From IMG/VR virus record IMGVR_UViG_3300035698_004138, positions 1 to 34,188 of that record: a stretch of 34,188 nucleotides of DNA, one strand, 5' to 3'. Below, piece by piece: positions 11,224-32,480 of the stretch. The position numbers and the translations under genes are program-made. The notes beneath the pieces were generated by a model, which worked only from the letters and a program-made list of their open reading frames with translations, was not told the DNA's origin and ran no database searches. The DNA is from a virus. Numbering within the stretch: position 1 is the stretch's first letter; every line of letters starts with the position of its first letter.

Positions 11224-11416
11224 GTGTGGCGGCGCATATTTTTCTGTGGATGATTTAATTATGTCTCTTGTTGAGCAACTTAATACAAATCAAGCGCATG
11301 AATTCGTGGTTGAACTTGAGCGACAGTATGCCTCTGGTAAATTATTTAACTCTTTACATGGTTATTTTATAAGCGAGGAATATTTATTGGAAATGGAATA
11401 TGGAACTGACGGCTGA
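11195..11416 (+). CDS. Unknown small acidic protein, 73 aa
   Basis: ATG 11195 has GGAG at 11185-11188 with ideal spacing. After a KKKKM lead the product is acidic (SVDDLIMSLVEQL, then ELERQY). No family recognised. It ends 17 nt inside the large terminase gene, so it is probably co-translated with it. Confidence 0.6.
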   Translation: MNKKKKMDIECGGAYFSVDDLIMSLVEQLNTNQAHEFVVELERQYASGKLFNSLHGYFISEEYLLEMEYGTDG

Positions 11417-12944
11417 GGAAATATTAAAAGAAATTGAATTAGAGGCCATTGCTTTAGCAGAAACTAACAGTAGTATCAAGTTAGCAAACAGGTCTTTAAT
11501 GGATTTTGTTTTATACCACGATGAAGATTATCAAAATCTTTGGTTTCATGAGTTGATATCCAAAAGCCTAGATAGTATATTGGATGGTAAAATTAACAGA
11601 TTAATTATTAATATTCCACCACGTCACGGCAAGTCACATTTGGTGTCACGTTATTTTCCTGCTTATATTCTAGGTAAAAACCCAAACAAAAATATTATAT
11701 TAGCTAGCCACACAGATTCTTTTTCAAAGAAAATAAATAAAGATGTGCAAAGAATTATAGACAGTAAAAGATTTAAAAATGTTTTTCCAGAAACAAAATT
11801 GTTTGGATCAGATGGTTTTTCTCGCAAGGGCGGTACTTACACAAAGAACAAAAATGAATTAGAGGTGGTTGGTAAAACTGGCACATTTAGAAACGTTGGT
11901 GTTGGTGGTTCTATTACTGGCGAAGGTGGCGACATAATCATTGTTGATGATCCAATTAAATCTTGGGAAGACGCTATGTCGCCAACCATACGGGCGAAAA
12001 TTATTGATTGGTTTGACAACACTTTAATGACAAGACTTTCAGACATGAATGCATCTGCTATTATTATTGTTATGACCAGATGGCACGATGAAGACTTATC
12101 CGGTGTTTTGAGAAAAAGATTTCAACATGATCCAGAAAACAATGATGAATACAAATTAATTAAACTTGCTGCATTAAGGGGTAGTAAGGCCAATGATGAT
12201 TCTGACCCAAGAAGATATCAAGAATCGCTTTGGGAAAAAGACAAAAAAGGTAATTATAAATTTCCAAAACATAAATTATTAAAACTTAAAAACAGTCGCC
12301 CTAGAACTTATGCAAATTTATACGAACAGGAGCCAGTACCAGAAGGCGGCGAGTTATTTAAAGAATCTTGGTGGAAGTTTTATGATCGTGTTCCTTTGGA
12401 GTTTGAGGAAATTATTCAAACGTGGGATTTAAGTTTTGGTAGTCTAAGGTCCGATTCGTCCTATGTTTGCGGTCAGATTTGGGGAAGGTCCGGCGCAAAT
12501 CATTTTCTTTTAGATTTAATTAGAGAAAGAATGTCATATAAAGAAACGAAAGAAAATATGAAGTATTGGAACCAGAAGTGGAGCGTGGCGGTTCGCAAGC
12601 TTGTGGAAAACAAAGCGAATGGCCCGGCTGTTATTTCTGATTTACACAATTCAATTCCCGGTTTAATACCTATTGAGCCAAAGGGGTCTAAGTATTCAAG
12701 AGCTATTGTACCTGCTGAGGTTGTAGAATCTGGTAATATATTTTTACCAAAACCATCTCGCTTTCCGTGGTCTACAGAGTTTATTTTAGAGGCGAAAAGA
12801 TTCAGGGGATTAGACAATGAAAAAAACGATCAGGTTGATGCTTTTACTCAATACATTAATGATTACCTAAATAGAACAAGGCAGAACGCCTTGAGTGATG
12901 AAGATTTTTTTATGAACATAGATTCAATAACTGCGAGGTTCTAA
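11400..12944 (+). CDS. terL: Large terminase subunit
   Basis: 514 residues. The ATPase domain has Walker A PPRHGKS (73-79) and Walker B IIIVDD (179-184), and a coupling-motif region near TRWHDEDLSG. The C-terminal RNase H-like nuclease has TWDLSFG (about 341-347), an acidic/asparagine site at VENKANG, and DQVDAF near 477-482. It belongs to the phage terminase type with the psiM2 ORF9-like C-terminal domain. It pumps DNA into the prohead and cuts concatemers. Followed immediately by the portal gene. Packaging strategy (cos or pac) cannot be told from the sequence. Confidence 0.95.
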   Translation: MELTAEEILKEIELEAIALAETNSSIKLANRSLMDFVLYHDEDYQNLWFHELISKSLDSILDGKINRLIINIPPRHGKSHLVSRYFPAYILGKNPNKNIILASHTDSFSKKINKDVQRIIDSKRFKNVFPETKLFGSDGFSRKGGTYTKNKNELEVVGKTGTFRNVGVGGSITGEGGDIIIVDDPIKSWEDAMSPTIRAKIIDWFDNTLMTRLSDMNASAIIIVMTRWHDEDLSGVLRKRFQHDPENNDEYKLIKLAALRGSKANDDSDPRRYQESLWEKDKKGNYKFPKHKLLKLKNSRPRTYANLYEQEPVPEGGELFKESWWKFYDRVPLEFEEIIQTWDLSFGSLRSDSSYVCGQIWGRSGANHFLLDLIRERMSYKETKENMKYWNQKWSVAVRKLVENKANGPAVISDLHNSIPGLIPIEPKGSKYSRAIVPAEVVESGNIFLPKPSRFPWSTEFILEAKRFRGLDNEKNDQVDAFTQYINDYLNRTRQNALSDEDFFMNIDSITARF

Positions 12945-14282
12945 ATGCCAAAAACTTCTGGTGTTAAAGATAATAGTTTTTTTGTAGCCAAGGCGTCTTC
13001 TAATAGTTTTGACTCCGACTCTGATTCTTACAGTGACGAAGATTGGCAATCAATAGCTTCTTTAGCGGCGAAATATGCCAAATCTGTTGGTGTTGTAAAA
13101 AGCGTTGTTGATACGTGGGTTTCTTTTGCCCTTGGTAAAGATTTTCAATATACTATAAAAAAGGATAACAAGAAGCTAACAAAAGAAAAAATTAATGAAC
13201 TAAACAAACAGTATGGTATTAACAAGTTTGCACGAAACATGGTTAAACAGGGGCTTGTAAAAGGGAATACAACTGGCCTTTTCGATGGCACTACATTAAG
13301 GGTTGCGAATTCAACAAACGTTAAAGCTGTTCGTGATGGATATGATATTGTCACTCTCAATTATCAAAACGTAGACGAAAACGGTAACGCTGGCGATGTG
13401 GTTGTTTTAGATATGGAAACAAGCAAGCACATTAGATTTGATGCACAGGACTATGAAGAGAATGGGTTGTCTATTATTTATCCGGCGTTTGACAATATTA
13501 AAACAATGAAGGCTTATCAAGCTGCCGATAGGGAGATAGCTAGACAGTTTGAGACTCCATTTAGGTATATTCAGGTTGGCGGTTACTATGGCGACAAAGT
13601 TTATATGCCAAAACAATCTGATCTTGATAAATATAAAGAAAAAATTAACAAGATGAATCCGAAGGATGCGTTGATTGTACCCTTCCATTTTAAGGTTCAC
13701 ACCGAGGGTATTAGAGAGTCGGTTCCAGACACAGATAAAAAAATTCAAAGTTTGAGAAGTGATATTATTATTGACATGGGCATTGCTCAAAGTGTTGTCA
13801 CTGGCGAGGGCGCGAATAGAGCGACTGTAAAATCTGCCCTTGAGAAATTTGTTATTCAATTAACTCCTATTCAAGATATTGCAAGAGATATTTTAACATG
13901 GGCTTATTTTATTATTTTAAACAAGGTTGAAGGTTATGATTTAACAGAGGCAACCGTTCCAATTAAATTTGATTTTCCAGAAATTGATTTGTCTGATCGC
14001 GAAGAATACCAAAAGATTCTTATTGAGCTTTATGATCGTGCGCTAATATCAAAGAAGGCATTGCAAATTCGGTTTGATATTGAAGAAGATGAAGAAGAGA
14101 AAAAAAATCCAGATAAGGTTACATCTAATCCTGTGTTACTCGGAACCGATATTATCAATATGGTTTCTATGGGCATATTAACAGTAAAAGAAGCTAGAGA
14201 AATATTGGGTTTTAATGAAGACTTTGAAAAGGTTTTCGATGAATCGGAGGCGATAAAAACGAACCGAGAGTTATATAAATAA
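12945..14282 (+). CDS. Portal protein
   Basis: 445 residues, starting at the base after the terminase stop with GAGG at 12934-12937. Position between large terminase and the SPP1 gp7/Mu F-like minor head protein, length, alpha/beta wing-like centre and helical C-terminal third (including an acidic EEDEEEKK stretch near 383-390) fit a phage portal. The N-terminal SDSDSYSDEDW segment is acidic and probably disordered. It would form the dodecameric ring through which DNA enters the head. Overlaps the next gene by one base. Confidence 0.88.
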   Translation: MPKTSGVKDNSFFVAKASSNSFDSDSDSYSDEDWQSIASLAAKYAKSVGVVKSVVDTWVSFALGKDFQYTIKKDNKKLTKEKINELNKQYGINKFARNMVKQGLVKGNTTGLFDGTTLRVANSTNVKAVRDGYDIVTLNYQNVDENGNAGDVVVLDMETSKHIRFDAQDYEENGLSIIYPAFDNIKTMKAYQAADREIARQFETPFRYIQVGGYYGDKVYMPKQSDLDKYKEKINKMNPKDALIVPFHFKVHTEGIRESVPDTDKKIQSLRSDIIIDMGIAQSVVTGEGANRATVKSALEKFVIQLTPIQDIARDILTWAYFIILNKVEGYDLTEATVPIKFDFPEIDLSDREEYQKILIELYDRALISKKALQIRFDIEEDEEEKKNPDKVTSNPVLLGTDIINMVSMGILTVKEAREILGFNEDFEKVFDESEAIKTNRELYK

Positions 14283-15226
14283 TGTCAACATTGTATGATC
14301 CTAAAAAAAGCCAAGATGAAAACATAGGCATAGCCACAGAATTGTCTATGGGCCGAAGAAAAAAATGGGAAACAAAAAGAATTAACGAATTGCTTTCTGA
14401 CATGAAAGTAGCCAGGAAAAATATTACCAAAGAGATAAGTGAATTAAATTTAATATATCAAAAAAACGAATGGACTGGATTTAGAATATCAACACTTAAC
14501 GATTTGTATAAAAAAATAGACGATATATCTGACGAGTTAAAAACAAGCATGACGCTTAATGTGCTTCCTAGAAAAGAAGATGTGTTCAAACTAGGAGCAA
14601 TGCAGTCTGCAAGAGGATTACGTGCTGCTAATGAGCCAGACTTTAAGGGTCTTGGTGTGGGCGCAGTTAATGTTATTACCAATAAGCAATTTAGCTTAAT
14701 ACCAAAACAAGCCATTCAGTTTATGGCTAACTTTGATTTGCAATTACTAGGCAATGTTAGTGACATGTTAGCTAGCGACATTAAAAGCCAAATTAATATC
14801 GGAATTTTAAATGGTGTTTCTGTTGATGATATAACAAGGAACATCGGAAACATAATAACAAATCCAGATGATTTTAAAAAGGCTGGCAAAACAGTTTTTA
14901 AAACTGCAAGCGCCAGGATAAATAATATTGTAAGAACCGAAACAACACGGTCGATGAAGAACGGAAGTTTTTTAACATATCAAAAACTTGGCGTTCAAAA
15001 AGAGAAGTGGTATACCGCAGATGATGAAAGGGTTTGCTCTTTGTGTGGACCACTAGACAATAAAGTATTTGTTTTGGGCGCAGCACCGGGACCACCACGA
15101 CATCCTCTGTGTAGGTGTACTACAACTCCAGAAATTAAAAACAGAAAAGTAGACTCTTATATCGACAAGACAGAGTTAGAAAACTGGGAAAAAAACTTTT
15201 CAAAAAAGCTTGATTTTTCACTGTAA
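14282..15226 (+). CDS. Minor head protein (SPP1 gp7/Mu gpF-like)
   Basis: 314 residues. The C-terminal signature of this family is clear: KWYTADDERVCSLCGPLDNK followed by PPRHPLCRC and TTTPE, including paired cysteines and a histidine that could bind zinc. The N-terminal part is helical and basic. In SPP1 and Mu, members bind the portal and help head assembly or early DNA entry. Directly follows the portal, as is normal. A likely promoter lies inside its last codons, after which the head module is interrupted. Confidence 0.92.
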   Translation: MSTLYDPKKSQDENIGIATELSMGRRKKWETKRINELLSDMKVARKNITKEISELNLIYQKNEWTGFRISTLNDLYKKIDDISDELKTSMTLNVLPRKEDVFKLGAMQSARGLRAANEPDFKGLGVGAVNVITNKQFSLIPKQAIQFMANFDLQLLGNVSDMLASDIKSQINIGILNGVSVDDITRNIGNIITNPDDFKKAGKTVFKTASARINNIVRTETTRSMKNGSFLTYQKLGVQKEKWYTADDERVCSLCGPLDNKVFVLGAAPGPPRHPLCRCTTTPEIKNRKVDSYIDKTELENWEKNFSKKLDFSL

Positions 15227-15238
15227 ATTTGTTATCGT
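15210..15238 (+). promoter_or_regulatory. Candidate sigma70 promoter with extended -10
   Basis: TTGATT (15210-15215), a 17-nt spacer and TATCGT (15233-15238), with TGT directly upstream of the -10. The -10 is imperfect (4 of 6), but the arrangement copies the promoter at 6908-6936 and precedes the first gene of the accessory block at 15267. Confidence 0.5.
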
Positions 15239-15266
15239 AGTCTTTAGTTAATGGAGCTTTTAAAAC

Positions 15267-15380
15267 ATGACAGATTTTATAACAGATTTTTTTTGGTTTT
15301 TTGCACACAATAAACGCTTTTGGCTTTTGTTTATTAGTTTTATTTGTGTATGGGGTTTAATCAGGCTAGGGAGAACATAA
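15267..15380 (+). CDS. Very small single-pass membrane protein, 37 aa
   Basis: ATG 15267 after TGGAG (15252-15256). A short aromatic N-terminus (TDFITDFFWFFAHNKR) is followed by a hydrophobic segment (FWLLFISFICVWGLI) and a basic C-terminus (RLGRT). Probably one membrane helix. The stop overlaps the next ATG (TAATG). Candidates include a holin-like or host-membrane-interacting peptide, without direct support. Confidence 0.55.
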   Translation: MTDFITDFFWFFAHNKRFWLLFISFICVWGLIRLGRT

Positions 15381-15592
15381 TGGCTAAATGCAGATATATT
15401 GTGCGATTGGTTGAAGATAATAAAATTGTAAATGTTTTCAACTCTTATAAGGCAGCGTTTAATTTATTTTCTATAAAAAAATACCACAATAAATTCACTA
15501 ATATTAAAAGAAAAAAACAATTCCATCGTGTTTGGAATTTGAAATACATTATAGAGAAGGTTAAAAGCAAAGATTATTTCCTTAGATTTTAG
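15380..15592 (+). CDS. Unknown small basic protein, 70 aa
   Basis: ATG 15380 with GGGAG at 15369-15373, sharing a TAATG junction with the preceding membrane peptide; a longer frame from 15344 lacks a suitable start signal. Strongly basic (KKYHNKFTNIKRKKQF), compatible with nucleic-acid binding. No family recognised. Confidence 0.65.
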   Translation: MAKCRYIVRLVEDNKIVNVFNSYKAAFNLFSIKKYHNKFTNIKRKKQFHRVWNLKYIIEKVKSKDYFLRF

Positions 15593-15601
15593 TCGGTTGA
15601 A

Positions 15602-16027
15602 ATGAGCAGTTTTGATAAGTATAAAAGGTTTTTAGATGTTGCCTTAGAGGTTAGTCGCTATGGTGGCTTTTCCAAAAAGTATGTAGGTGCTGTTATTGTA
15701 TATAAAAACAAATTTATATCAAGTGGTGCAAACCGGATAAAGACACACCCTAGGCAAAAACTTGTTAGTGTTGATACTGAATATTTACATGCTGAAACTG
15801 ACGCTATTATATCGGCAATGAAAAAGAAAAAAGATCTTTCTGGATGTTATATTTTAGTTGCCAGAAAAACTAAAGATGGAAGTGTTACTATGGCCAAGCC
15901 TTGTTCTCATTGTTTAGGTTTAATTCATGAGGTTGGAATTAAAAAAGTAGTTTATACAGGATGGAATGGAAGGCTTTGCGAGATTGATTATAAGCATGAC
16001 AAGTTTAGCATGGAGAAAAAAGCATGA
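15602..16027 (+). CDS. Cytidine/deoxycytidylate deaminase-family protein
   Basis: 141 residues with the zinc-deaminase signature: HAE (63-65, E65 as the proton shuttle) and PCSHC (100-104). The Shine-Dalgarno is weak. dCMP deaminases (dCMP to dUMP) are common in phages, and ThyX, which uses dUMP, is encoded downstream, so dCMP deamination is the favoured role. Cytidine- or other base-deaminase activity is possible since the substrate loop is not diagnostic. Confidence 0.8.
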   Translation: MSSFDKYKRFLDVALEVSRYGGFSKKYVGAVIVYKNKFISSGANRIKTHPRQKLVSVDTEYLHAETDAIISAMKKKKDLSGCYILVARKTKDGSVTMAKPCSHCLGLIHEVGIKKVVYTGWNGRLCEIDYKHDKFSMEKKA

Positions 16028-16284
16028 AGATTGATTGTTACGATTCGGATATTTGTGATGGCGTGTGCATAAACTGTGGGCTAAATGATAATTACGAGGT
16101 ATCACCAGTGTTAGCAAGAGTTGTTGTTTCCTCAATGCACGAAGATTTTGTTTCTCTTCGGAATATTAACTATAGGGGCATAAAAAAAACACTAACAAAT
16201 GCTGGCTTTAAACCAGGAGATGAAATTGTTATTTTAAACAAGGAAATATACGAGTCTATTATTAAGGGGGCTTATAATAGATAA
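16024..16284 (+). CDS. Small cysteine-rich protein, 86 aa
   Basis: ATGA overlap with the deaminase gene; GGAG at 16012-16015. N-terminal cysteines C5, C11, C15 and C18 (CDGVCINC) suggest a metal site. The C-terminal half (KPGDEIVILNKEIYESII) reads like a small beta domain. No family recognised. Confidence 0.65.
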   Translation: MKIDCYDSDICDGVCINCGLNDNYEVSPVLARVVVSSMHEDFVSLRNINYRGIKKTLTNAGFKPGDEIVILNKEIYESIIKGAYNR

Positions 16285-16504
16285 TTTAGATTTACAAGAT
16301 ATTCATGCGGAATATACAGAAAAGATAATTGATTTTATTTGGAAAGACTTGAGTGATCGCAGAGGTTTTGAGTTTATGGATGACATTGAAACATATATGA
16401 AACTTGACATCCAAAATGAATGGCATGAGCAAATTGCCGAAGATTTAGAAAAATTAAACACAATAATTTTAGATGGAGGTTGTGGTTGTGACTGTAAAAA
16501 ATAA
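16277..16504 (+). CDS. Small acidic protein with possible AUA start
   Basis: An open frame of about 75 codons fills the gap before the tubulin-like gene but has no ATG, GTG or well-placed TTG near its 5' end. AAGGGGG (16264-16270) lies 6 nt before ATA at 16277, suggesting an unusual AUA start; the alternative is ATG 16376, giving a 42-residue product. The protein is helical and acidic and ends GGCGCDCKK. The last 17 nt overlap the next gene and contain its ribosome binding site, so that tail may be a by-product of the overlap. Confidence 0.45.
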   Translation: MDNLDLQDIHAEYTEKIIDFIWKDLSDRRGFEFMDDIETYMKLDIQNEWHEQIAEDLEKLNTIILDGGCGCDCKK

Positions 16505-17636
16505 AAAAAAGAGCGACGGAATTTTTGATATTCCAGATACGCCAGATGATAAAAGAAAAAAGATTGAGGATAAAATTAACCATCCCATTGCCGAAAAATT
16601 TGCGTTTGTAGGCGGGGGTCAGGGTGGGGGTAAAATCTGCGAATCGTTTTGGAACTTGGGATATCGGAGGTTGTTTGTTGTTAATACTACCAAACAGGAT
16701 TTAGATGATGTTAATATTCCAGATGATAATAAAGTGTTGTTTAGCCATGCAGAAGGTGGTGCCGGAAAAGACATGAGTGTTGGCGAAGAATTTGCGCTAA
16801 AACACAAGGATGATATTTTCGACAACATGAGAAACAAATGGGGTGAAGACTTAGACCGTTGCTTTGTTGTGGCCTCTGCTGGTGGCGGCACTGGTGGTGG
16901 TAGTTGTAACGTGTTGATTGATCAGTGTAAAAAGTATATGGATTATATCGGTAAAAAAGATAAGGTTGGAGTAATTTTAACCTTGCCGAACATTACAGAT
17001 AGTAAGCGCGTCCAAATGAATGCTTACTTTTTGTTTCAATCTATTTTAAAGCGTGTTGAGAATAAAGAGATTGCAACACTTGTTGTTTTGGACAATGCAA
17101 GGTTACATAATATCTTTTCGCATGAGCCAATCGGAAAGTATTGGGGCTTAGTAAATCGGTATATGATTCTGCCTTTACATATGTTCAATATTTTATCTGG
17201 CTCTCATTCACCTTTTGTTACTTTAGACAGGGCAGATTTTAGGTCTATTTTGGACTCAGGTTGCATTGTATTCGGCGCAAGCAAAGTAAAAGACTACATG
17301 TCTGAGACTGACATATCAAAGACGCTCAGAGACAGATTTGAGCGTGGCTTATTTTCCGATGCCGATCTTTCAACAAGTAAGGTTGCAGGTGCCATTCTTG
17401 TTATTAACGACAAGATGAAAGATACAATTCCTCAAGGTCATTTTGACTATACATTCACGACTGTAACTAGATTAATGAACGATGACGCTATGATGCATCA
17501 AGGCGTCTATGTAAATAATGATGTTAAAGACATGTTGATTTATTCCATGTTTGGAAGCGTGGAGTATCCTAAAGAGAGAATTGAAAACCTTAAAGCTATT
17601 GCCGGTGTCGAATCTGCCAATAGTTTTTATGGATAG
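16488..17636 (+). CDS. Tubulin/FtsZ-superfamily GTPase (TubZ/PhuZ-like)
   Basis: 382 residues from GTG 16488, 8 nt after GGAGG (16475-16479); ATG 16473 would overlap that site. GTP-binding loops appear in FtsZ order: T1 VGGGQGGGK (41-49), T2 NTTKQDL (66-72), T3 EGGAGKD (89-95), T4 tubulin signature AGGGTGGGS (131-139) and a helix-7-like LVNRYM (221-226). The T7 loop TLDRADFR (245-252) keeps the two acidic residues that complete GTP hydrolysis in the neighbouring subunit, so it probably forms dynamic filaments. Known phage or plasmid relatives (TubZ, PhuZ) segregate or position DNA. No TubR-like adaptor is recognised next to it; a long inverted repeat follows. Confidence 0.88.
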   Translation: MTVKNKKKSDGIFDIPDTPDDKRKKIEDKINHPIAEKFAFVGGGQGGGKICESFWNLGYRRLFVVNTTKQDLDDVNIPDDNKVLFSHAEGGAGKDMSVGEEFALKHKDDIFDNMRNKWGEDLDRCFVVASAGGGTGGGSCNVLIDQCKKYMDYIGKKDKVGVILTLPNITDSKRVQMNAYFLFQSILKRVENKEIATLVVLDNARLHNIFSHEPIGKYWGLVNRYMILPLHMFNILSGSHSPFVTLDRADFRSILDSGCIVFGASKVKDYMSETDISKTLRDRFERGLFSDADLSTSKVAGAILVINDKMKDTIPQGHFDYTFTTVTRLMNDDAMMHQGVYVNNDVKDMLIYSMFGSVEYPKERIENLKAIAGVESANSFYG

Positions 17637-17664
17637 ACCTATAGGGTCATGTTCTTTTTTATTT

Positions 17665-17748
17665 TGGTGTGTGCTTGTGGTCTAGTCAAATTAACTTAAT
17701 CCTACTTGACAGATCTTATGGAATAACCAACAAAGCAAGCACACACCA
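17665..17748 (+). repeat. 13-bp inverted repeat enclosing 58 nt, candidate structured RNA or site
   Basis: In the 136-nt gap after the tubulin-like gene, TGGTGTGTGCTTG (17665-17677) is the exact reverse complement of CAAGCACACACCA (17736-17748). Inside, GTCAA (17685-17689) can pair with TTGAC (17706-17710). The right arm is followed by CTTTTTT (17749-17755), and another T-rich run lies left of the left arm. It could be a terminator with a large apical region, a small structured RNA, or a protein-binding site. A short GACC/GGTC stem (17636-17648) sits at the gene's end. Confidence 0.6.
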
Positions 17749-17772
17749 CTTTTTTAAAATCAAGGGTGATAA

Positions 17773-19275
17773 ATGCCAAAAAAATACACAGATAAAGACA
17801 AAGGGTTTTTGATACTAACTAGAAATTGTTTAAACAACAAATCTTTAGAGTTTGTATTTAAGCATGTTAATGGTTCCCACTTAAGCTATAGCCAGTATTC
17901 AATTAAAAACATTATGTTTCGAATGCGAGAGGCTGGACTTGTTATACCGGCGTTTAAAAGCCAACACGTATATCAGGCAATTAAATATGTTAAAGAATCA
18001 AGTGTGGATTTTGGCGAATACTTAGAGGCTTTGTTTTTATTAGACATAAACGACACTACATGTAACAATTTTGAAAAAGAAGAAATGAAAGTTGATGGCA
18101 ATCACGCCATTCTTGATAAGCGCACAAAAACAAACCCCAAAAACCTTGAGGAATTATTATCTGTTTGTAATGTTGATCGAGATGAGTGGATTGTTGACAA
18201 GTATACAGTTAATAAGTGGGATAATGTTTCAAAAACAAAAGAAGATGAAATTATTGTTACACCACTGTATCAAATAAAAGCTTTTTTAACAAAACGGAAT
18301 CCTGATTTTTGCCAATGGCCAGTTGTTAAGCCTGTTGTTGTTCCGAGTTTTAAACAGTTAAAAAAGAAGTCTGTTAAAAAGAAAAAGAAAATATATTCTG
18401 CCCTGTTAGGATCTTGTTTGCACGTTGGTTTTCGTAGAGATTTAGATACTGGCTACCTAGATCCAATGCACGATAGGCGAGCTATTGACATATTCTGTCA
18501 GTTTGCGGAAGATACACACCCTGATAGAATTATTTTAGCGGGTGATATACTTGATCTACCTATGCACTCTAAGAATTTTCCAAAGACTCCAGATTTTTAT
18601 TTCACAACACAACCTAGTCTTGACGAGGTTCAATACCACTTGCAGAGAATGAGAAAATCCTGTGATAAAATGGATATTATGGAAGGCAATCATGATTATA
18701 GATTCACGGCTTCAATTTTAGATAATCATTTAGAGTCTTACAATTTAAGACGAGCCAATATGACTCTTGGTTCAAACCCTATTAACTCGCTATCACACTT
18801 GTTGGATTTAGAATCATTATGTATTGATTATCATGGTCCATATCATGAAGCTAGTATTTGGTTAAATGATAACTTTAAAGTTAGTCATGGTTTCATTAGT
18901 AAAAAATCTGCCTACAAAACAGCCGAGGCGTTAATTAACAATAAGTCTTATAGTCAGGCCATCGGGCATACACATAAAGTTGGTCTCGACACTAAAGCCG
19001 ACTGGCGCGGTGGTCGCTATAGGTTCTATTTGGGCGCTACGTTCGGTTGTCTATGTAGAATAGAGGATGGTATTGTTCCATCTAATAGGCCAGAAAAAAA
19101 TTGGGTTCAAGGTTTTGCCAGGGTGTTTTACGAACCAGGAAATGGTATGTTTAAATTTGAACAGTACGAGATATTCGATGGCGAGTGTATGATTGTTGAT
19201 ACTGTTTATGTTGGTGAGGACAGGCTAAAAGAAATAGAAGCCTTTACTAATAATAATTTTCTAAGGAAACCGTGA
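17773..19275 (+). CDS. Calcineurin-like metallophosphoesterase with N-terminal extension
   Basis: 500 residues. The first 200 or so are a helical extension and lysine-rich linker, with a segment (DEWIVDKYTVNKWDN) of a type seen in large phage phosphoesterases. The catalytic domain has GDILDL (257-262), GNHD (305-308), a later histidine in KVSHGF and GHTHK, the standard metal ligands. The first motif reads SCLHVG (214-219), so the usual D-x-H aspartate is apparently cysteine. Likely acts on nucleic acid or nucleotides; substrate not predictable. AAGGGTGAT precedes the start. Confidence 0.85.
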   Translation: MPKKYTDKDKGFLILTRNCLNNKSLEFVFKHVNGSHLSYSQYSIKNIMFRMREAGLVIPAFKSQHVYQAIKYVKESSVDFGEYLEALFLLDINDTTCNNFEKEEMKVDGNHAILDKRTKTNPKNLEELLSVCNVDRDEWIVDKYTVNKWDNVSKTKEDEIIVTPLYQIKAFLTKRNPDFCQWPVVKPVVVPSFKQLKKKSVKKKKKIYSALLGSCLHVGFRRDLDTGYLDPMHDRRAIDIFCQFAEDTHPDRIILAGDILDLPMHSKNFPKTPDFYFTTQPSLDEVQYHLQRMRKSCDKMDIMEGNHDYRFTASILDNHLESYNLRRANMTLGSNPINSLSHLLDLESLCIDYHGPYHEASIWLNDNFKVSHGFISKKSAYKTAEALINNKSYSQAIGHTHKVGLDTKADWRGGRYRFYLGATFGCLCRIEDGIVPSNRPEKNWVQGFARVFYEPGNGMFKFEQYEIFDGECMIVDTVYVGEDRLKEIEAFTNNNFLRKP

Positions 19276-19568
19276 TGATTGAGGCTTGGCAAAAAGGATA
19301 TACTTTTTCCGCTCCAGATAATAATAATGTAAAAACAAGATACATGTCTGTTTGGAGTATAGAGTTTGGTGGATGTTGGTTTCTAGCTGGATTTATTGAG
19401 TGTGAAAAAGACGACAATGACATTCCTATCTATGCTGGTTACGTGGCAAGAAAATGTAAAACAAAGAATGATGAACCAATAATGTTTTGCAGGTCTGACA
19501 GCTTAGGAGTCGTAAAAATGCAAATGGTTAAATATTACGGTTTAGAAGTAAATTGGAAAACAAAATGA
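19275..19568 (+). CDS. Unknown small protein, 97 aa
   Basis: ATG 19275 follows AAGGA (19263-19267) by 7 nt; GTG 19272 is the alternative. A small beta-rich domain (YMSVWSIEFGGCWFLAGFIE) with several cysteines. Overlaps the phosphoesterase stop and the next gene. No family recognised. Confidence 0.65.
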   Translation: MIEAWQKGYTFSAPDNNNVKTRYMSVWSIEFGGCWFLAGFIECEKDDNDIPIYAGYVARKCKTKNDEPIMFCRSDSLGVVKMQMVKYYGLEVNWKTK

Positions 19569-23385: not shown

Positions 23386-24501
23386 ATGAATGTGGAAATT
23401 TTAAAAGAGGGAATAACTTTTGGCCTGAAAAACATATTGGGTGCTGTGGAAACAAAAAACACAATTCCAATTTTGTCAAAAGTTTTGTTTAGGGCCAGGA
23501 AAGATCAAGGCTTAGTTATAGAAACAACCAACATGAATATGAGCATGAGGTTTGACTTGGGTTGCAATTGCAATGAAGACCTATCCGCATGTATTGATGC
23601 ATATGATTTGTATAAGCTTGTTAAAAATTTTCCAGACGAATCAATGGTTAGCTTAGACTTTAACGATGATTATCTTGATATCTCTTTTTGCGACACTAAA
23701 TATAGGCTTGTTGTTGTTCCAGATTCGGACTTTCCGAAATTGTTTACAGATAAAATTCAATACCAATTTGTTGATGCATTAAAGATTAAACAGATGGCAG
23801 ATTTGATTTCTCTTTCTATCTCGGATAATGATGTAAGATTATTTTTAACTGGTGCTGGTTTCGACAAAAGCAATGGTGGCATAGAGGTTACATCTTCAAA
23901 TGGCAAACAGTTATCTAATGTGTTTCTTGATATAGATAATAATTTTATACAGAAGCCGTGTATTTTACCTAGGAAATTTTTATTAGAGCTTGCAAAGAAC
24001 ATAGAGAACAATAACATTCAGTCTATAGGTGTTTTTTTTAATGAAGATAAAGCATATTTTAAAATGAATGATATTGAATATCTTTCAAGGTTTATTGAAA
24101 GCCAGTATCCGAAATTAAATGTTATGCTAAAACAATCAATGGATTGTGTTTTCTCTTTGGTCGGTGAGGATCTTAGGAGTGCGCTATTAAGGATGTCTAT
24201 GTTATCATCTGATTTTAGCGACAAGATAACTATAGGCTTAAAGGATGATAAATTATTATTGTTTGCACAGGATGAAACAAAAGGATCCGGCAATGAACTA
24301 ATAGATGTTGTAAAAGAACGTGGTTCTATGGCAAATAGTTTCAACCTTAGTTTAGGATGTTTAATAAATATTCTTGGAGTGTTTAAAAAGAATGGGTTTA
24401 AGGATATAACAATAAAGGTTTGTGACAAGCCAGAGTTTCCTATAATTATTAACACAAAAGACTTTGATGGTTTTGATTATGCCATTATGCCTATAATTTA
24501 A
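23386..24501 (+). CDS. dnaN: DNA polymerase III beta sliding clamp (DnaN-like)
   Basis: 371 residues, the length of bacterial beta clamps (about 366). N-terminal KNTIPILSKVLFRA matches the start of DnaN proteins; the SRFIESQYPKLN segment (domain 2/3 junction) and the terminal AIMPII, equivalent to the VMPMR end near the partner-binding groove, complete the three-domain pattern. It would form a homodimeric ring on DNA and tether a polymerase. No polymerase lies in this window, so it may recruit the host polymerase, or one encoded elsewhere. AGAAGG precedes the start. Confidence 0.88.
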   Translation: MNVEILKEGITFGLKNILGAVETKNTIPILSKVLFRARKDQGLVIETTNMNMSMRFDLGCNCNEDLSACIDAYDLYKLVKNFPDESMVSLDFNDDYLDISFCDTKYRLVVVPDSDFPKLFTDKIQYQFVDALKIKQMADLISLSISDNDVRLFLTGAGFDKSNGGIEVTSSNGKQLSNVFLDIDNNFIQKPCILPRKFLLELAKNIENNNIQSIGVFFNEDKAYFKMNDIEYLSRFIESQYPKLNVMLKQSMDCVFSLVGEDLRSALLRMSMLSSDFSDKITIGLKDDKLLLFAQDETKGSGNELIDVVKERGSMANSFNLSLGCLINILGVFKKNGFKDITIKVCDKPEFPIIINTKDFDGFDYAIMPII

Positions 24502-24840: not shown

Positions 24841-24869
24841 GATTGTTTTTTATTCATATGAGGTATGAT

Positions 24870-26207
24870 ATGAAGCTGAAATTTTTTAACTATTACAATC
24901 CAGATCAGGTTGTTGCAGAATATATTATGGATGAAAACTTTGATAGTATATCTGATTCTGGAAACAAAAAGGCTAAACCAGAAGAAAAAAAAGAGGAAAG
25001 AAAGGAAGGAAAATTGGTTAGTTCTGCTAGATTTAACGTTAAATTAGAGTTGATTGCCAAAGAAGATGGTGCAAAGAGAAGCAAAGTTAAGTTAATTTTA
25101 ACTCACGTTGGATCAAATGCTAATGGTGATGAATTTACATATGATGAATTAAAGAAGGCCGCTGGTTCTATTGTCGGCCAGAAAATTGATTTTAATCATG
25201 AGCAAGATGCCGAAGCTATTGTTGGTAAAGTTATCAGTGCAAAATTTATTGAAAGCGGTGATGATTCTCACGTTGAATGCATTGGTGAGCTTTTTGATGA
25301 CACTTTACCTTCTGCGTCATTGGCTAGGTTGTTTATTTCGGAAGGTATTATTGAGCATATTTCGATGGAATGTGAATTCCAAAGGGGGCAATGTTCGTAT
25401 TGTAACGAAGAGTATACAAGCATGTCAGAAATGTGTAATCATTTAATGTGGCACAAAGGAACTGAATATAAAGGAAAATATGTTTCTAATATCTTGCATG
25501 ATATTACATTTACAGGATTGGGATTGTTGGACAAAGAGGGTGCAGATAGACGGGCTACGATTAAACTAGCTGCATCAAAGCTTATGAAAAATTATGGAGG
25601 TAATAATATGGATAACGAGAAGAAAAACGCTGAGAAAATGGGTGTTGATGTAAACATTAATATCCAAGCTGAACAGAAAGAAAAGAAGGAAGAAAAGAAA
25701 ACAGAAGAAAAAGAAGACGTTAAAAAGGAAAAAGCTGAGGAAAAAGAAAACGATTCTACTATCAGTGATTTAGAGAAGCGAATTGAAGATCTTGAAAAGT
25801 CTATTGAGGCTAAAGATTCTACTATTCAAGAGTTGGAAGACGAAAAAGCCAAGAGCTTAAGAGAAGAGTCTGCTAAAGAAGTTATGGATTTGTATAAAAA
25901 AGCAGGTCGAGAGTTTAATGACGAATCATTCCAGACTGAAGTTGACAAACTTATTGAAATGAGTGAGGAAAAATTTGATGCTGTAAAAGAAACTGCATCT
26001 GTTTTTGCCACTGAGTTTGAGGTTAAGCAAAACACTGAAGAAGAAAAAGAAGATGATGTTGATGTCGAAGATGTTGATGAAAACAAAACCGAAGCATCAA
26101 AAAAAGAAATGAAATCTAATGCGAATAAAAAAGTTAAACCCGCAGAAGATAATGAACAGCCTCTTGCTGTTCGTCTTGAAAACGCACTAAGAGAATTTAA
26201 CAAGTAA
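24870..26207 (+). CDS. Prohead protease fused to scaffold
   Basis: 445 residues from ATG 24870 (GAGG at 24860-24863). Residues about 50-240 look like an XkdF/U35-type prohead protease: THVGSNANGDEFTYDELK, FNHE with H110 and ISME with S165 as likely catalytic residues. An insert at 175-195 has C-x2-C-x12-H-x3-H, the spacing of a C2H2 zinc finger. From about 247 the protein is highly charged and coiled-coil (scaffold), with AVRLENALREF at the C-terminus. A strong internal start at M247 would make scaffold alone. Next come head genes, as expected. Confidence 0.85.
   Translation: MKLKFFNYYNPDQVVAEYIMDENFDSISDSGNKKAKPEEKKEERKEGKLVSSARFNVKLELIAKEDGAKRSKVKLILTHVGSNANGDEFTYDELKKAAGSIVGQKIDFNHEQDAEAIVGKVISAKFIESGDDSHVECIGELFDDTLPSASLARLFISEGIIEHISMECEFQRGQCSYCNEEYTSMSEMCNHLMWHKGTEYKGKYVSNILHDITFTGLGLLDKEGADRRATIKLAASKLMKNYGGNNMDNEKKNAEKMGVDVNINIQAEQKEKKEEKKTEEKEDVKKEKAEEKENDSTISDLEKRIEDLEKSIEAKDSTIQELEDEKAKSLREESAKEVMDLYKKAGREFNDESFQTEVDKLIEMSEEKFDAVKETASVFATEFEVKQNTEEEKEDDVDVEDVDENKTEASKKEMKSNANKKVKPAEDNEQPLAVRLENALREFNK
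25608..26207 (+). CDS. Nested scaffold protein from internal start, 199 aa
   Basis: In frame with the protease-scaffold gene, ATG 25608 follows GGAGG (25596-25600) with a 7-nt spacer, TGGAGGTAATAATATG, nearly the same initiation sequence as the genes at 26222 and 26659. The product is the charged coiled-coil region only. Phage lambda (C/Nu3) makes scaffold by exactly this in-frame internal start, so a free scaffold made in excess of protease is expected. Inferred from sequence, not proven. Confidence 0.7.
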   Translation: MDNEKKNAEKMGVDVNINIQAEQKEKKEEKKTEEKEDVKKEKAEEKENDSTISDLEKRIEDLEKSIEAKDSTIQELEDEKAKSLREESAKEVMDLYKKAGREFNDESFQTEVDKLIEMSEEKFDAVKETASVFATEFEVKQNTEEEKEDDVDVEDVDENKTEASKKEMKSNANKKVKPAEDNEQPLAVRLENALREFNK

Positions 26208-26658: not shown

Positions 26659-27501
26659 ATGAATATGTTTAAAAACGCAGAACAAGTTGGGAAGCTAATG
26701 AAAGAAGCCATTAGTGCTGGCCCAAAAGGAATGCAAGCTATCGCTGCTGCGATTAATGGTATCTTGGAAGATTACGTTGATGAACGTGCTATCGTCCCTG
26801 AGATTCTGACTTTAGATAATACTAATGGTGAAAACCCTGAGTATTCGGTTGTTGAGGATGGCAAGGCTTATTTTATTGCCGAGAACTCAAAACCAATTGA
26901 AGATCCAACTGAAGGCGCATTGGTTCGCCCTTCTATTCTGCGACTACACTCTAATCCAACTATGGATATTGGCGTGTTTGAGCGTGGTCAGGTTGGTAAA
27001 ATGAATGAGCGCATTGCAAATGCTGGTTTGGCAATGGTTAAAGAAGAGAATAGTTATGTGACTACTCTCTTGTCTGCTGCCTTAACTGCACTTGGCGCAA
27101 CCAACACTGTTAATGTTGCTGGTGGCTCATTAACTATGGACGCTTTAGATTCTGCTATTGCTTTTGTTGAAGACAATGGCCTAAGAGTCAAGTCTATTCT
27201 AACTCGCGGTCAACATCTATCCTCGTTTAGTGCTTCTGATTCTCCGAATTTTTCTGATGCACAAGCTTTGCGCGGCGCGGTAAAAACCTATCATGGTGCG
27301 ACTGTTTACAATGTCCCTCAAATGGCTGCCGATCAAGTCATTTTAATTCCAGATAAACAAATTGGTTGGGCACCTGTGCGGTCTAAAATGAAGACCAAAG
27401 CCTCTTCTACTGGTTTCCAGATGGATATTTTATCTTGGAAGGAAGTTGGTTATGCTTTAACGCTAGCTAAATATTCTGCCCAAGTTACTATTACACCATA
27501 A
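26659..27501 (+). CDS. Major capsid protein (HK97-fold type)
   Basis: 280 residues. Position after protease/scaffold and decoration-like genes, very strong ribosome binding site (GGAGG 26646-26650) and composition point to the major capsid protein. Pattern elements of the fold: a long N-terminal helical stretch (about 1-38), an E-loop-like region (LTLDNTNGENPEYSVVEDGK), a spine-helix-like AIAFVEDNGLRVKSILT and a C-terminal strand segment (SWKEVGYALTLAKYSAQV). Weak sequence conservation in this family means the call rests on context and general pattern. Confidence 0.82.
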   Translation: MNMFKNAEQVGKLMKEAISAGPKGMQAIAAAINGILEDYVDERAIVPEILTLDNTNGENPEYSVVEDGKAYFIAENSKPIEDPTEGALVRPSILRLHSNPTMDIGVFERGQVGKMNERIANAGLAMVKEENSYVTTLLSAALTALGATNTVNVAGGSLTMDALDSAIAFVEDNGLRVKSILTRGQHLSSFSASDSPNFSDAQALRGAVKTYHGATVYNVPQMAADQVILIPDKQIGWAPVRSKMKTKASSTGFQMDILSWKEVGYALTLAKYSAQVTITP

Positions 27502-27949: not shown

Positions 27950-30865
27950 ATGAAGGGTAACAAACCTGTCATTGCCATAATTGGCGAGTCGTTTTCGGTC
28001 GGCGGGGCCGAAAGAATGACTGTCGATATGGCCAACGCTTTAAATGAGGAATATTATACTCATTTGGTCTTGACTATATCTGACAAAGGGGTTAATAAAG
28101 CTCACCTAAATAAGAAAATTGACTATAAGTTAACGGCCTCTGCTAAGAATTTAGTAGGGGCTTTAACTTATGTCCAACACGACATGGTAATTTTTAATAA
28201 TTGCCGATCTGTTTTAAAAGTATTAGACGAATTAAACAACCATCCCAAAAGGCCAAAGACTATTGTTTCCATGGTTCATGGCAGCAATAAATTATCATTA
28301 GACTTAATACCAGACCATCCATGTATCGATAGGGTGTTAACGGTTTCAGATAAAGCCAGGATTGGAATTGAGAAACACCTACCATATTGGGCTGGCAAGA
28401 TTGATGTAATACAGAACTACGTTGATTCTAGTCTCTTTAAGCCTGTTAATAGAAATAATTTAGACGTAGAGATTGATGGCTGGTCAAGAGATTCTAAGAT
28501 ACTAGGCTATTGTGGTAGGTTTTCTGGTGAGAAGTCTTTAATATCTTTGGTTACAATTCTTAATAAATTAAAAAGCATCGATCAATCATGGAAGCTATTA
28601 ATGATTGGCGGCATAGATGAAGATGTTGATGTGTTTTTAGATTACTGGAAAAAAGAAAAAGCATCTGTTGAGAATATGATTAATCAGTATGGGCTAGGGG
28701 ATGATGTATTAATTACTGACAGTGTTGAAGATCCAGAAAACTACTATCCACTGATTGATGTGTTTGCATTAACCAGTTGTTATGAGGGTAGCCCCTTGGT
28801 TATACAAGAGGCCATGGCTTGTGGCTTGCCTGTTGTGTCTACTAATGTCGGTGATGCTGAAGAAGTTATTTATGGCGCTAACTGTGGTTATATTGTTGAT
28901 AAGAAAAAACAAGACCTTGATGACGTAGAAACAAATCAATTTGTATCATTAGTAATTGAATCTTATAAAAACAAAAAAATGTTTGGCGAAAATGCTAGAG
29001 GTTGGATTGTTAAAAACAGATCAATTGATTCTTTTGACAAAAACATAAAAGAATATATATTAAATCCAAACATATTTAAGGGTGAAAAAAAAGAGAATAA
29101 AACAAAAAGATCAAAACCCAATAGTGTTTGTTTGATTCCAGATCAGCCGGGATGGGCCTTTGATAGAATATCAAATCTTATTAAGTCTAAGTTGTCACAT
29201 AAATATAATTTTAAGATATCTTATTTGCAAGACTTAATAAGAAACAACACAAAAGAAGATCGGGGAATTTTATTTTGGTACAACAGCATAAATGGAAATG
29301 TTATCAACAAAAAAGATAGTATACCATGTATATATGATGGTGTCTCATGGGGCGATTTAGACATATCAAATTTGGCAAATAGTGCCAAGGCGATAGCTGT
29401 AGCAAATAAAAAATTAAAAAAAATAGTTTTAAAAAATAAAGATGTAATTAAAAATAAAACAAAAATATTTGAAATACAAGACGGTGTTGACACCTCTGTT
29501 TTTTATTCAAACAAAACAAAAAACAAAAAACAAAAAATACAAGTAGGGTGGACTGGAAACTCAAAATTAAAATTTAAAAATACTGACGTGAAGGGTTTTT
29601 GGATAATACAAAAAGCGATGAGTCTAACATCGGATATTGCCGATTGGCATATTGTAGATAGAGATGTTAATGGTATTCCGTTTGACAAAATGCCAGAATG
29701 GTATAATGGTCTTGATATTATAACCTGTATGTCAACAGAAGAGGGTACGCCGAATCCACTACTCGAAGGCTTGGCCTGTGGGTGTTTGCCCGTTATGACA
29801 AATGTTGGGTTGGCTCAAGAGTTGATTGATGATGGCTGTCAAATAGAAATAATAGAGCGAAGTGTTGATTCTTTGGTTTCAAAAATAAAACACATTAGTA
29901 AAAACAAAAGCTTGATTCATTGTGCAAAAGATAAAAACATTCCAATTGTAAAAGAAAAATGGGATTGGAATATTAGAATAAAGAATTGGGAAAAAGTTAT
30001 TGATTTCTATTTGGACAATAAAAAAGAACCATTAGAAAGAAAACATAAAACAGATTTGTCAAATGATGTTACTGTTTTTGTTACAACTATTGGTGCTGTT
30101 GACTATAAACACTGTATAGAGTGTTTAGAGAATCAAGATTGTAAATTTAATATTGAGGTAATAAAGAACGTATCGCCAATGAATGCAGCTTTTCAAAAAA
30201 TGATAGATAATTGTAAAACCAAATATTACATTCAGGTTGATGAAGATATGATGCTCTATCCACATGCGGTTAGGACAATGCATGATCGAATATTAAAAGA
30301 ACCTGACACAACCGCCATACTTGTTCATGGGCTTCATGATGTTTTTATAGACATGAATATAACTGGCGTGAAAATATATAAACATAGTATAATAAAAAAA
30401 TTCCCATATAGCGTCAATGGTTTTTCGTGCGAAACAGATCAGTTAAAAAAATTAAATAATTCTGGATTTGGTATTAAGTTTTATTATAACGGATTGATCA
30501 ACACAATAGACGATACCGTCATGGGCGACTTAAATGAACACTGGGATCAATGGGGAGTGTTTGAAAAATATAGTAGAGATATGCAAAAACTAAAAAGAGA
30601 TCCAGATAATCAAGGCTGGATGTCTATGTTGCTTCCTATTTTTATTGACAAAATCAAATGTGGATATGATAATATTGCGCTATATGCTATACTTGGCGCT
30701 ATAGTTGGTCTTGCATCGCCCTTGCTTAAGGACAAGGAAAAAGACTTTACAAGGCCAGAGTTTCTGCCGGTATTTAATCTTTTAAAAGAAATTCTAAAAA
30801 ATAATTTTAATGAAAACGTAAGCCTAAAAATTAAGAACATAAAAAGAAATATTGGTAATTTATGA
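27950..30865 (+). CDS. Three-domain glycosyltransferase (GT4-GT4-GT2)
   Basis: 971 residues. Domain 1 (about 1-370) is a GT-B/GT4 enzyme: IGESFSVGGAERM near the N-terminus and SCYEGSPLVIQEAMACGLPVV with the E-x7-E donor-binding motif. Domain 2 (about 390-690) is another GT-B domain with STEEGTPNPLLEGLACGCLP. Domain 3 (about 705-971) is GT-A/GT2-like with VDEDMM as the DxD metal site. The first and third appear catalytically intact. No clear Shine-Dalgarno precedes ATG 27950. Likely builds or modifies a glycan, on virion proteins or host surface; acceptor unknown. Confidence 0.88.
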   Translation: MKGNKPVIAIIGESFSVGGAERMTVDMANALNEEYYTHLVLTISDKGVNKAHLNKKIDYKLTASAKNLVGALTYVQHDMVIFNNCRSVLKVLDELNNHPKRPKTIVSMVHGSNKLSLDLIPDHPCIDRVLTVSDKARIGIEKHLPYWAGKIDVIQNYVDSSLFKPVNRNNLDVEIDGWSRDSKILGYCGRFSGEKSLISLVTILNKLKSIDQSWKLLMIGGIDEDVDVFLDYWKKEKASVENMINQYGLGDDVLITDSVEDPENYYPLIDVFALTSCYEGSPLVIQEAMACGLPVVSTNVGDAEEVIYGANCGYIVDKKKQDLDDVETNQFVSLVIESYKNKKMFGENARGWIVKNRSIDSFDKNIKEYILNPNIFKGEKKENKTKRSKPNSVCLIPDQPGWAFDRISNLIKSKLSHKYNFKISYLQDLIRNNTKEDRGILFWYNSINGNVINKKDSIPCIYDGVSWGDLDISNLANSAKAIAVANKKLKKIVLKNKDVIKNKTKIFEIQDGVDTSVFYSNKTKNKKQKIQVGWTGNSKLKFKNTDVKGFWIIQKAMSLTSDIADWHIVDRDVNGIPFDKMPEWYNGLDIITCMSTEEGTPNPLLEGLACGCLPVMTNVGLAQELIDDGCQIEIIERSVDSLVSKIKHISKNKSLIHCAKDKNIPIVKEKWDWNIRIKNWEKVIDFYLDNKKEPLERKHKTDLSNDVTVFVTTIGAVDYKHCIECLENQDCKFNIEVIKNVSPMNAAFQKMIDNCKTKYYIQVDEDMMLYPHAVRTMHDRILKEPDTTAILVHGLHDVFIDMNITGVKIYKHSIIKKFPYSVNGFSCETDQLKKLNNSGFGIKFYYNGLINTIDDTVMGDLNEHWDQWGVFEKYSRDMQKLKRDPDNQGWMSMLLPIFIDKIKCGYDNIALYAILGAIVGLASPLLKDKEKDFTRPEFLPVFNLLKEILKNNFNENVSLKIKNIKRNIGNL

Positions 30866-31794
30866 TTAAAGAAAAAACAAATGGACCATACTCGCTAAAT
30901 GTTTATTTAACATATAAGTGCAATCAATTGTGTCCTTTTTGCAAAAGGCAACAATCTGGATATGTTAATAGCCAAGCCAAAGACTTTGATGCACAGATGG
31001 CCAGTGATGTTATTTCAAGGTTTCAAGATTTAAAAAATATATGTATAGCTGGTTTTGGCGAGCCTCTTTTGTCTAATAGTTTGTATAAAGTAATAGATGT
31101 TTTTGTTTCAAAAAGAATATCGACAAATGTTATTACAAACGGAGTGTTGTTAAAAAAACATGCGACAAGAATTTTAAACTCAGGCTTATCATCTATTTCT
31201 GTTTCTGTTAATGCCTCAAACAAAGAAGAAAGAAAAACAATAACAGGACTAGACTCTTGGGATGATATGATAAGTGGAATTAAAATTTTGATTTCTGGCG
31301 GCATGGATGTTTCTACTTCGTTTGTTATTACAAAAAACAATTGGATGAACATACCATCTTATTTTAAGGAAATGTCATACCTTGGAATTGGATACAGGAT
31401 AGACTTACTTAATCTGTTGCCCCATTCTGATGACGAATTAGATATAAATAATTTTAATAATTTAACAATAAAAGATACCGATACAGACATATTATGTGAG
31501 ATAGATAAGTTTAAAAAAATGGGTGGAAGCCAAAATGTTAGAAATTGGCCGGTTGGATCACCAACAGGAAAGATAGATAAGTCATCTTGTCGGTCGCCAT
31601 TTAATACAATAGGAATAGATGGAGATGGAAATTGCACGTCATGCTCTAGGGTATATGGTCCTTCTGATATGGATGCAAACATAAAAGATTTAGACGTTTG
31701 GAATAGCGAGTCATTTATTAATTTGCGTAGTGAGGTATCTGGAGAAAAAGAAAAAAAGATTCTTTGTAGTAAGTGTTGGGGCCACTTGCAATGA
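30862..31794 (+). CDS. Radical SAM protein with SPASM-like C-terminus
   Basis: 310 residues. CNQLCPFC (C20-x3-C24-x2-C27) is the radical SAM 4Fe-4S motif, followed by the GFGEPLLS strand and the NGVLLKKHA region typical of the barrel. The C-terminal part has cysteines at CRSPF, CTSC and CSKC (about 243, 259, 262, 301, 304), a SPASM/twitch-like auxiliary cluster set. Radical SAM enzymes near glycosyltransferases often modify sugars or peptides; the substrate here is unknown. ATG overlaps the previous stop (ATGA). Confidence 0.88.
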   Translation: MIKEKTNGPYSLNVYLTYKCNQLCPFCKRQQSGYVNSQAKDFDAQMASDVISRFQDLKNICIAGFGEPLLSNSLYKVIDVFVSKRISTNVITNGVLLKKHATRILNSGLSSISVSVNASNKEERKTITGLDSWDDMISGIKILISGGMDVSTSFVITKNNWMNIPSYFKEMSYLGIGYRIDLLNLLPHSDDELDINNFNNLTIKDTDTDILCEIDKFKKMGGSQNVRNWPVGSPTGKIDKSSCRSPFNTIGIDGDGNCTSCSRVYGPSDMDANIKDLDVWNSESFINLRSEVSGEKEKKILCSKCWGHLQ

Positions 31795-32480
31795 AAAACA
31801 AATGGGAGAATGGATTGTTAAGCGAACTGGGTTATTGGAAGTGGACAATGAAACAACCATGTTATGGAGAAATGAAAGACAGGGACAGTAAAAACAAACC
31901 GCTTGATTCTTTTGTTCGGTCCTTGTGTCCACAAAACACTAAAGAAAAAATTAAGATACTTGATGTTGGTTGCGGTCCCTTAAGTCCATTAGGTTTGGTT
32001 TCTGATATACAGATACAGATAATCGGTGTTGACCCACTTGCTGATAGGTATAAGGAAATGCTTATTAAGCATAGCGTAAACACAAATAGCGAATTGTTTC
32101 CAGTGCAAGGCAAGGCCGAGTCTCTTGTTTTGCTTTTTGGAAACAACATGTTTGACGTAACCGTATCATTTAACAGTCTTGACCATATGGCTGATCCACT
32201 TGTGGCTATAAGACAAATGACTAGAGTTACAAAACATGGTGGCGTTATTTATGTTTGGTGTTATGAAAACGAGGGTTTGTTTGAGGATTATAAAGGGTTA
32301 CACCAATGGAATGTTGAATTAAAAGATAACCATGTTTTTGTGTGGAGAGAAAACTATAGGAAATCATTAGATGAAATAGTTAATGGTTTTGCAGAAATTA
32401 AAAAAACATGGAAAAGTAAAAAACACAACAAAGATATTGTGCATTTTATTTTAACTATAGACAAGAAAGAGATAGTCTAA
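31791..32480 (+). CDS. Class I SAM-dependent methyltransferase
   Basis: 229 residues. ILDVGCGPLSP (56-66) is motif I of the Rossmann methyltransferase fold; GVDP (motif II) and SFNSLDHMADPL (motif IV-like) follow, a pattern of the Methyltransf_11 group acting on small molecules, lipids or sugars. ATG 31791 overlaps the radical SAM stop (ATGA), so the two are coupled. Probably methylates the product of the cassette. Confidence 0.85.
   Translation: MKNKWENGLLSELGYWKWTMKQPCYGEMKDRDSKNKPLDSFVRSLCPQNTKEKIKILDVGCGPLSPLGLVSDIQIQIIGVDPLADRYKEMLIKHSVNTNSELFPVQGKAESLVLLFGNNMFDVTVSFNSLDHMADPLVAIRQMTRVTKHGGVIYVWCYENEGLFEDYKGLHQWNVELKDNHVFVWRENYRKSLDEIVNGFAEIKKTWKSKKHNKDIVHFILTIDKKEIV

Follow-up and report, generated by a model that had tools for sequence, protein, structure and literature searches.

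A TubZ-sister tubulin family in uncultured phages, most often encoded among head and packaging genes

Introduction

Most discussion of phage tubulins concerns jumbo phages that form a nucleus, or partition of the plasmid-like kind. Both centring of the phage nucleus and transport of capsids have been reported for PhuZ filaments (PMC13282480), and a phage-encoded tubulin has been treated as a mark of the Chimalliviridae, with few scattered exceptions (PMC11835377; PMC9123017; PMC7162821). Induced tubulin/FtsZ clusters were reported from a hot-spring virome and left unresolved (PMC8597652). The open-access literature searched contained no description of the clade, motif or head-gene linkage reported below, and the viral tubulin family is apparently undescribed.

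We analysed a 34,188-base stretch of viral DNA (the window), which is the complete IMG/VR entry IMGVR_UViG_3300035698_004138. The record has no end repeats and is therefore probably a genome fragment. A first-pass annotation had proposed that it encodes a phage tubulin/FtsZ-like GTPase within its head-gene region, possibly belonging to a new type of filament system.

Results

A full-length tubulin-fold GTPase

The tubulin, a protein of 382 aa, is encoded at 16488-17636 (+ strand), with its stop codon ending at 17636. The reading frame is open from an in-frame ATG at 16473, and the likely start, judging from the sequence, is GTG 16488, which is preceded at a distance of 8 bases by a GGAGG ribosome-binding site (16475-16479, +). 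The end part of a small acidic ORF (16349-16504, +), which is not matched by the TubR profile, overlaps the tubulin start by 17 bases.

In a single-sequence scan, Pfam Tubulin matched the protein at 1.3e-14 and TubZ-like_C at 1e-5, the latter precisely at its 26-bit cut-off. The top match among PDB sequences was Bacillus cereus TubZ (1.1e-20), and the NCBIfam ftsZ score of 55.8 bits was far below the cut-off of 295.2. An AlphaFold2 model built with 24 sequences had a pLDDT of 86 and a pTM of 0.86, falling below a pLDDT of 50 at residues 1-19 and at the last three residues. TubZ ranked first against this model both by Foldseek (E 1e-22) and by VIA-align (Z 37.7 over 337 residues), followed by CetZ and FtsZ, with Z values of 28-38 across the three. 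Membership of the tubulin superfamily, as first proposed, is thus borne out by structure prediction and alignment, which rule out a fold of any other kind.

The GTPase loops, all on the + strand, are conserved between the window protein and its relatives (family alignment A2). In the T1 loop GGGQGGG (residues 42-48, 16611-16631), G42, G44, Q45, G46 and G47 are invariant, as are G91, A92, G93 and K94 in the T3 region GGAGKD (residues 90-95, 16755-16772). The T4 tubulin signature GGGTGGG (residues 132-138, 16881-16901) has an invariant GGGTG and G138, and the T7 catalytic loop LDRADF (residues 246-251, 17223-17240) an invariant D247 and D250. The two T7 acidic residues are kept in 81/81 distinct family members, so the initial description of this loop as intact holds; T1 and T4 are intact as well. 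The T4 ending, described in the first-pass annotation as GGG rather than GSG/GTG, is not unusual: T4 reads GGGTGxG in 64 and GGGSGAG in 17 of the 81 members, and its last variable position is unremarkable, GGGTG[A/S/T/G/C]G all being found in the family. By its predicted fold and its loops, the window protein is a full-length tubulin/FtsZ-fold GTPase.

Directly 3' of the gene lies an intergenic element (17665-17755) in which a 13-bp perfect closing stem, TGGTGTGTGCTTG/CAAGCACACACCA, surrounds inner helices; a T run follows, and the fold has a z of -3.9. It may be a terminator of elaborate form or else a small RNA with structure. An Rfam scan of the whole window, this element included, returned 0 families.

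A viral clade sister to plasmid TubZ

An alignment query identified at least 281 IMG/VR loci related to the window tubulin (157 in the first round), of which the best 80 of 157 and then the best 80 of 281 were examined. Single-sequence scans of viral contigs and genome contigs found no relative; alignment queries alone recovered them. Three queries of 50,697 GenBank phage records likewise gave no relative, the one match being at chance level (E 1). Among 84,980 species genomes, the alignment query found one relative, whose contig is phage-like and also carries genes for DNA polymerase III and a Clp-like protein, and the 15 weak relatives on plasmids were TubZ from Bacilli and CetZ from haloarchaea. 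A pattern scan for the GGGTGGG variant of the window produced four loci, all unrelated.

The first 80 loci and the window formed 24 clusters at 80% identity. Pfam Tubulin matched all 24 cluster representatives, and TubZ-like_C five of them, the window included. The window tubulin is about 35% identical to the first 80 loci, which are about 50% identical to one another; its closest relative among the matches listed is L114 (44% identity), found later and in a different gene background.

In an IQ-TREE tree of 47 rows, the window and all viral members formed one clade (support 100/99), within which the window was the deepest branch. This clade was sister to plasmid TubZ (99/97), lying outside and not within the TubZ clade. 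FtsZ, CetZ and PhuZ each formed a separate supported clade (100/100 for PhuZ), so the window tubulin is distinct from all three, with plasmid TubZ as the sister group. Median dN/dS over 12 close pairs with usable dS was about 0.05, indicating strong purifying selection.

A conserved motif on the N-terminal arm

The N-terminal 35 residues had been described as charged and extended. They are charged, but not merely so, as they carry a conserved motif. An LPDIPMP-like motif, of which LPDIPMP is the commonest form, occurs 26-35 residues before T1 in 80/81 distinct members; the family pattern is [hydrophobic]P[DNE]xxP, about 30 residues before T1. The sole member without the standard motif, L085, has LPDDLLVP. 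Shuffled N-terminal arms contained the motif in 5% of cases, and it was present in 0/22 TubZ, CetZ, PhuZ and FtsZ proteins searched over their first 90 residues. The window version, IPDTP (residues 15-19, 16530-16544, + strand), is a reduced form in which the proline P16 corresponds to an invariant column of A2. The motif region is disordered in the AlphaFold model of the window tubulin, and we infer a putative binding site on a flexible arm. This motif and the terminase/portal gene linkage described next are the two features of the family that look new.

Tubulin genes among head and packaging genes

The window has a head-gene module (genes with coordinates here are on the + strand) comprising a terminase large subunit (11400-12944; phrog_38, 2.7e-97), a portal protein (12945-14282; phrog_2739, 3.5e-26), a MuF-like minor head protein (14282-15226; Phage_Mu_F, 1.4e-10), a 9-kb cassette, a probable head protease/scaffold (24843-26207), a decoration protein and a major head protein (26659-27501; phrog_2522, 1.5e-23), in that order. 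The protease/scaffold was named from its position, its E/K-rich tail and a weak N-G-D...NH resemblance to the protease of relatives. The cassette holds genes for dCMP deaminase, the tubulin, a metallophosphoesterase, ThyX and a beta clamp. Placement of the tubulin among head genes, as first noted, is therefore confirmed by the MuF-like gene upstream and the protease/scaffold-like and major head protein genes downstream. Because about 9 kb of nucleotide-metabolism and uncharacterised genes separate MuF from the protease, this region may be an insertion hotspot and the window tubulin just one passenger among several.

Several other genes of the window were recorded. Directly after the tubulin, 17773-19275 encodes a protein of 500 aa that has a metallophosphoesterase domain at its C-terminal end (phrog_20266, 2.9e-34) and an uncharacterised N-terminal part of about 180 aa. 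A complete DNA polymerase III beta sliding clamp (23386-24501) lies amid the head genes, between MuF and the protease. The region directly after the head genes (27950-33536) encodes a 971-aa double glycosyltransferase, a radical SAM/SPASM protein and two methyltransferase-like proteins, possibly modifying virion or host glycans. Positions 1-636 form an open ORF that matches no Pfam family and consists of short repeats containing SV (such as NSVWASVR and GSSVGNSV); repeats of comparable style, GNxVxLG, are also seen in L041 near 12753-15535.

Among relatives, a portal gene clustered with the tubulin in 54/80 loci and in 16/23 sequence clusters (our count). Two alternative orders were found: TerL-portal-(c5)-tubulin-...-protease-MCP, and TerL-tubulin-portal in the L008/L010/L026 groups. 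The tubulin gene often overlaps its upstream gene by 2-5 bases in head-linked relatives. The identification of the terminase is secure (phrog_2, 3.5e-24). The portal gave weak PHROG matches (4.8e-5) and a poor model (pLDDT 52), for which every one of the top Foldseek rows was a phage portal protein, none with a value below 0.001; protease and MCP were named from position and very weak matches only. PHROG scans picked out the terminase and gave weak matches for the portal and very weak ones for head proteins, without identifying most other head proteins of the relatives. The c5 protein (434-436 aa in L011/L025, e.g. L025:8395-9705), whose gene separates portal from tubulin in many relatives, had no PHROG match and is a candidate tubulin partner.

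The linkage has exceptions, since in 7/23 viral clusters the tubulin lies away from head genes. The tubulin of L063 is next to folE/queuosine-like genes and those of L032 and L039 are near such genes (named by inspection of the sequence), that of the later-found L114 adjoins tail and replication genes, and others are near uncharacterised genes.

The window shares the clade-defining arrangement, its tubulin lying between terminase/portal and protease/MCP, specifically between MuF and protease/scaffold. The position of the tubulin within the head cluster varies between lineages. When the portal, protease and MCP profiles of window and relatives were compared, hhalign probabilities were below 5%. 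Apart from one weak methyltransferase match, the tubulin is the sole gene that L001-L088 other than L019 share with the window, and L019, the only viral-contig relative of the window terminase, is the same virus. Since the head proteins of window and relatives have no recognisable homology, the common head location is not simply inherited synteny. Thus, the tubulin came into the head regions of different phage lineages.

Partition partners and alternative roles

A profile built from TubR of six plasmid loci recovered 6/6 controls and had no significant match in the window or in 80 viral loci, in agreement with the initial observation that a TubR-like adaptor is lacking. No tubC-like iteron array was seen at 15200-19300 of the fragment record. 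All tubulin-bearing records are fragments, and a TubR or nucleus shell gene may lie farther off.

These results bear on the possibility that the protein is a partition filament of an extrachromosomal prophage or pseudolysogen, pulling DNA as TubZ does through a non-TubR adaptor. Plasmid TubZ is the nearest relative by tree and structure, and the TubZ of phage c-st is a known partition case (cited in PMC7824862). The adaptor in the window might be a protein with ParB_N and HTH_ParB/KorB domains (614-1525), encoded here in a lytic-looking phage fragment. However, ParB_N was found in 0/17 other tubulin-bearing contigs, and ParB was accordingly rejected as a family-wide partner. TubR is absent from the loci examined, the tubulin sits among head and packaging rather than replication genes, and the long C-terminal tail of TubZ is lacking in most family members. 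We regard a partition role as unlikely.

Tight operons with portal, protease and MCP could also point to a part of the virion or procapsid in place of a dynamic cytoskeletal filament; such a part might be structural in the head or might assist assembly in a GTP-dependent way. The complete tubulin signature for polymerisation and hydrolysis is nevertheless retained, and other lineages carry the tubulin outside head clusters, making this role distinctly improbable. Least likely is interference with host division, in which the tubulin would co-assemble with or titrate FtsZ or its partners and the PDxP motif would mimic an FtsZ tail peptide; this suits a tubulin/FtsZ fold and a disordered arm that bears a short linear motif, but the family is nearer to TubZ than to FtsZ, and the strong purifying selection on catalytic residues exceeds what simple poisoning needs.

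Discussion

We favour, at a probability of roughly 0.5, a filament-forming tubulin coupled to phage heads or to packaging. Its fold, catalytic residues, clade and gene linkage are observed, and filament formation and cargo are inferred. This reading is preferred because the protein is equipped as a polymerising GTPase and because of the sisterhood to TubZ, the lack of TubR, the new arm motif and the portal/terminase linkage. A role with heads or other cargo has a precedent, since PhuZ, from a separate tubulin clade, reportedly centres the nucleus and carries capsids.

Under this head- or packaging-coupled model, the tubulin would probably be made late, together with the head and packaging proteins. 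It would polymerise head to tail as TubZ does, hydrolysing GTP through the intact T7 loop upon subunit stacking. The flexible N-terminal arm with its PDxP motif would replace the TubR-DNA complex as the site of filament coupling, the partner being a head, packaging or DNA component of the phage. The filament would then serve to bring heads and replicated genomes together, or into position, for packaging. This would be a PhuZ-like role arrived at from the TubZ branch, in phages with no detectable phage nucleus.

The earlier idea of a new filament system appears to gain from the head-gene linkage across the family and from the N-terminal motif. More tentatively, the family may represent a widespread third lineage of phage tubulins beside PhuZ and partition TubZ, serving head assembly or packaging with no nucleus and coupled through PDxP instead of TubR.

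A tubulin of this TubZ-sister clade is present in hundreds of phages, uncultured and for the most part smaller ones, and its usual place is the head operon. This suggests that filament building by the phage itself, late in infection, is frequent among phages of ordinary size. If these filaments act on heads or packaging, virion assembly would be organised by a cytoskeleton far more commonly than one would think from the few cases in culture. Both the portal gene and the N-terminal motif offer direct, testable handles on function and cargo.

Comparison with known systems

The top viral fold match of the window protein (E 4.2e-38, 28% identity) was A0A6J5RW92 of an uncultured Caudovirales phage. 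Its name, 'FtsZ Cell division GTPase', is an automatic annotation, and it is probably a deposited member of the viral tubulin family. PHROG 17961, with function unassigned in PHROGs, matches most family representatives (22/24, best 1.7e-10), the window protein being unmatched.

FtsZ resembles the window tubulin in fold and T7 motif but belongs to another clade, and the phage protein has a short C-terminus in place of the long FtsZ-type linker and tail. PhuZ, the spindle tubulin of Chimalliviridae, is likewise a phage-encoded tubulin fold with a similar proposed cargo of heads and DNA, yet it forms a separate, well-supported clade and was a weaker structural match to the window tubulin in BFVD. 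PhuZ carriers are jumbo and nucleus-forming phages, whereas a chimallin query (phiKZ gp54) had no match in 12 large tubulin-bearing contigs of the viral family, an absence that is at most suggestive, as all 12 are fragments and the query found the control phage Noxifer but missed JM-2012, a PhuZ carrier. TubZ, of the plasmid type III partition system TubZRC, is the closest described system, sharing with the window tubulin a sister-clade position, the best PDB fold match, Tubulin and TubZ-like_C domains and a D-x-x-[D/E] T7 loop. It is 24-27% identical to the window tubulin and has a long C-terminal extension; the viral family, with no TubR gene beside it, is set apart by a short tail past the last strand, by its N-terminal motif and by its head-gene context.
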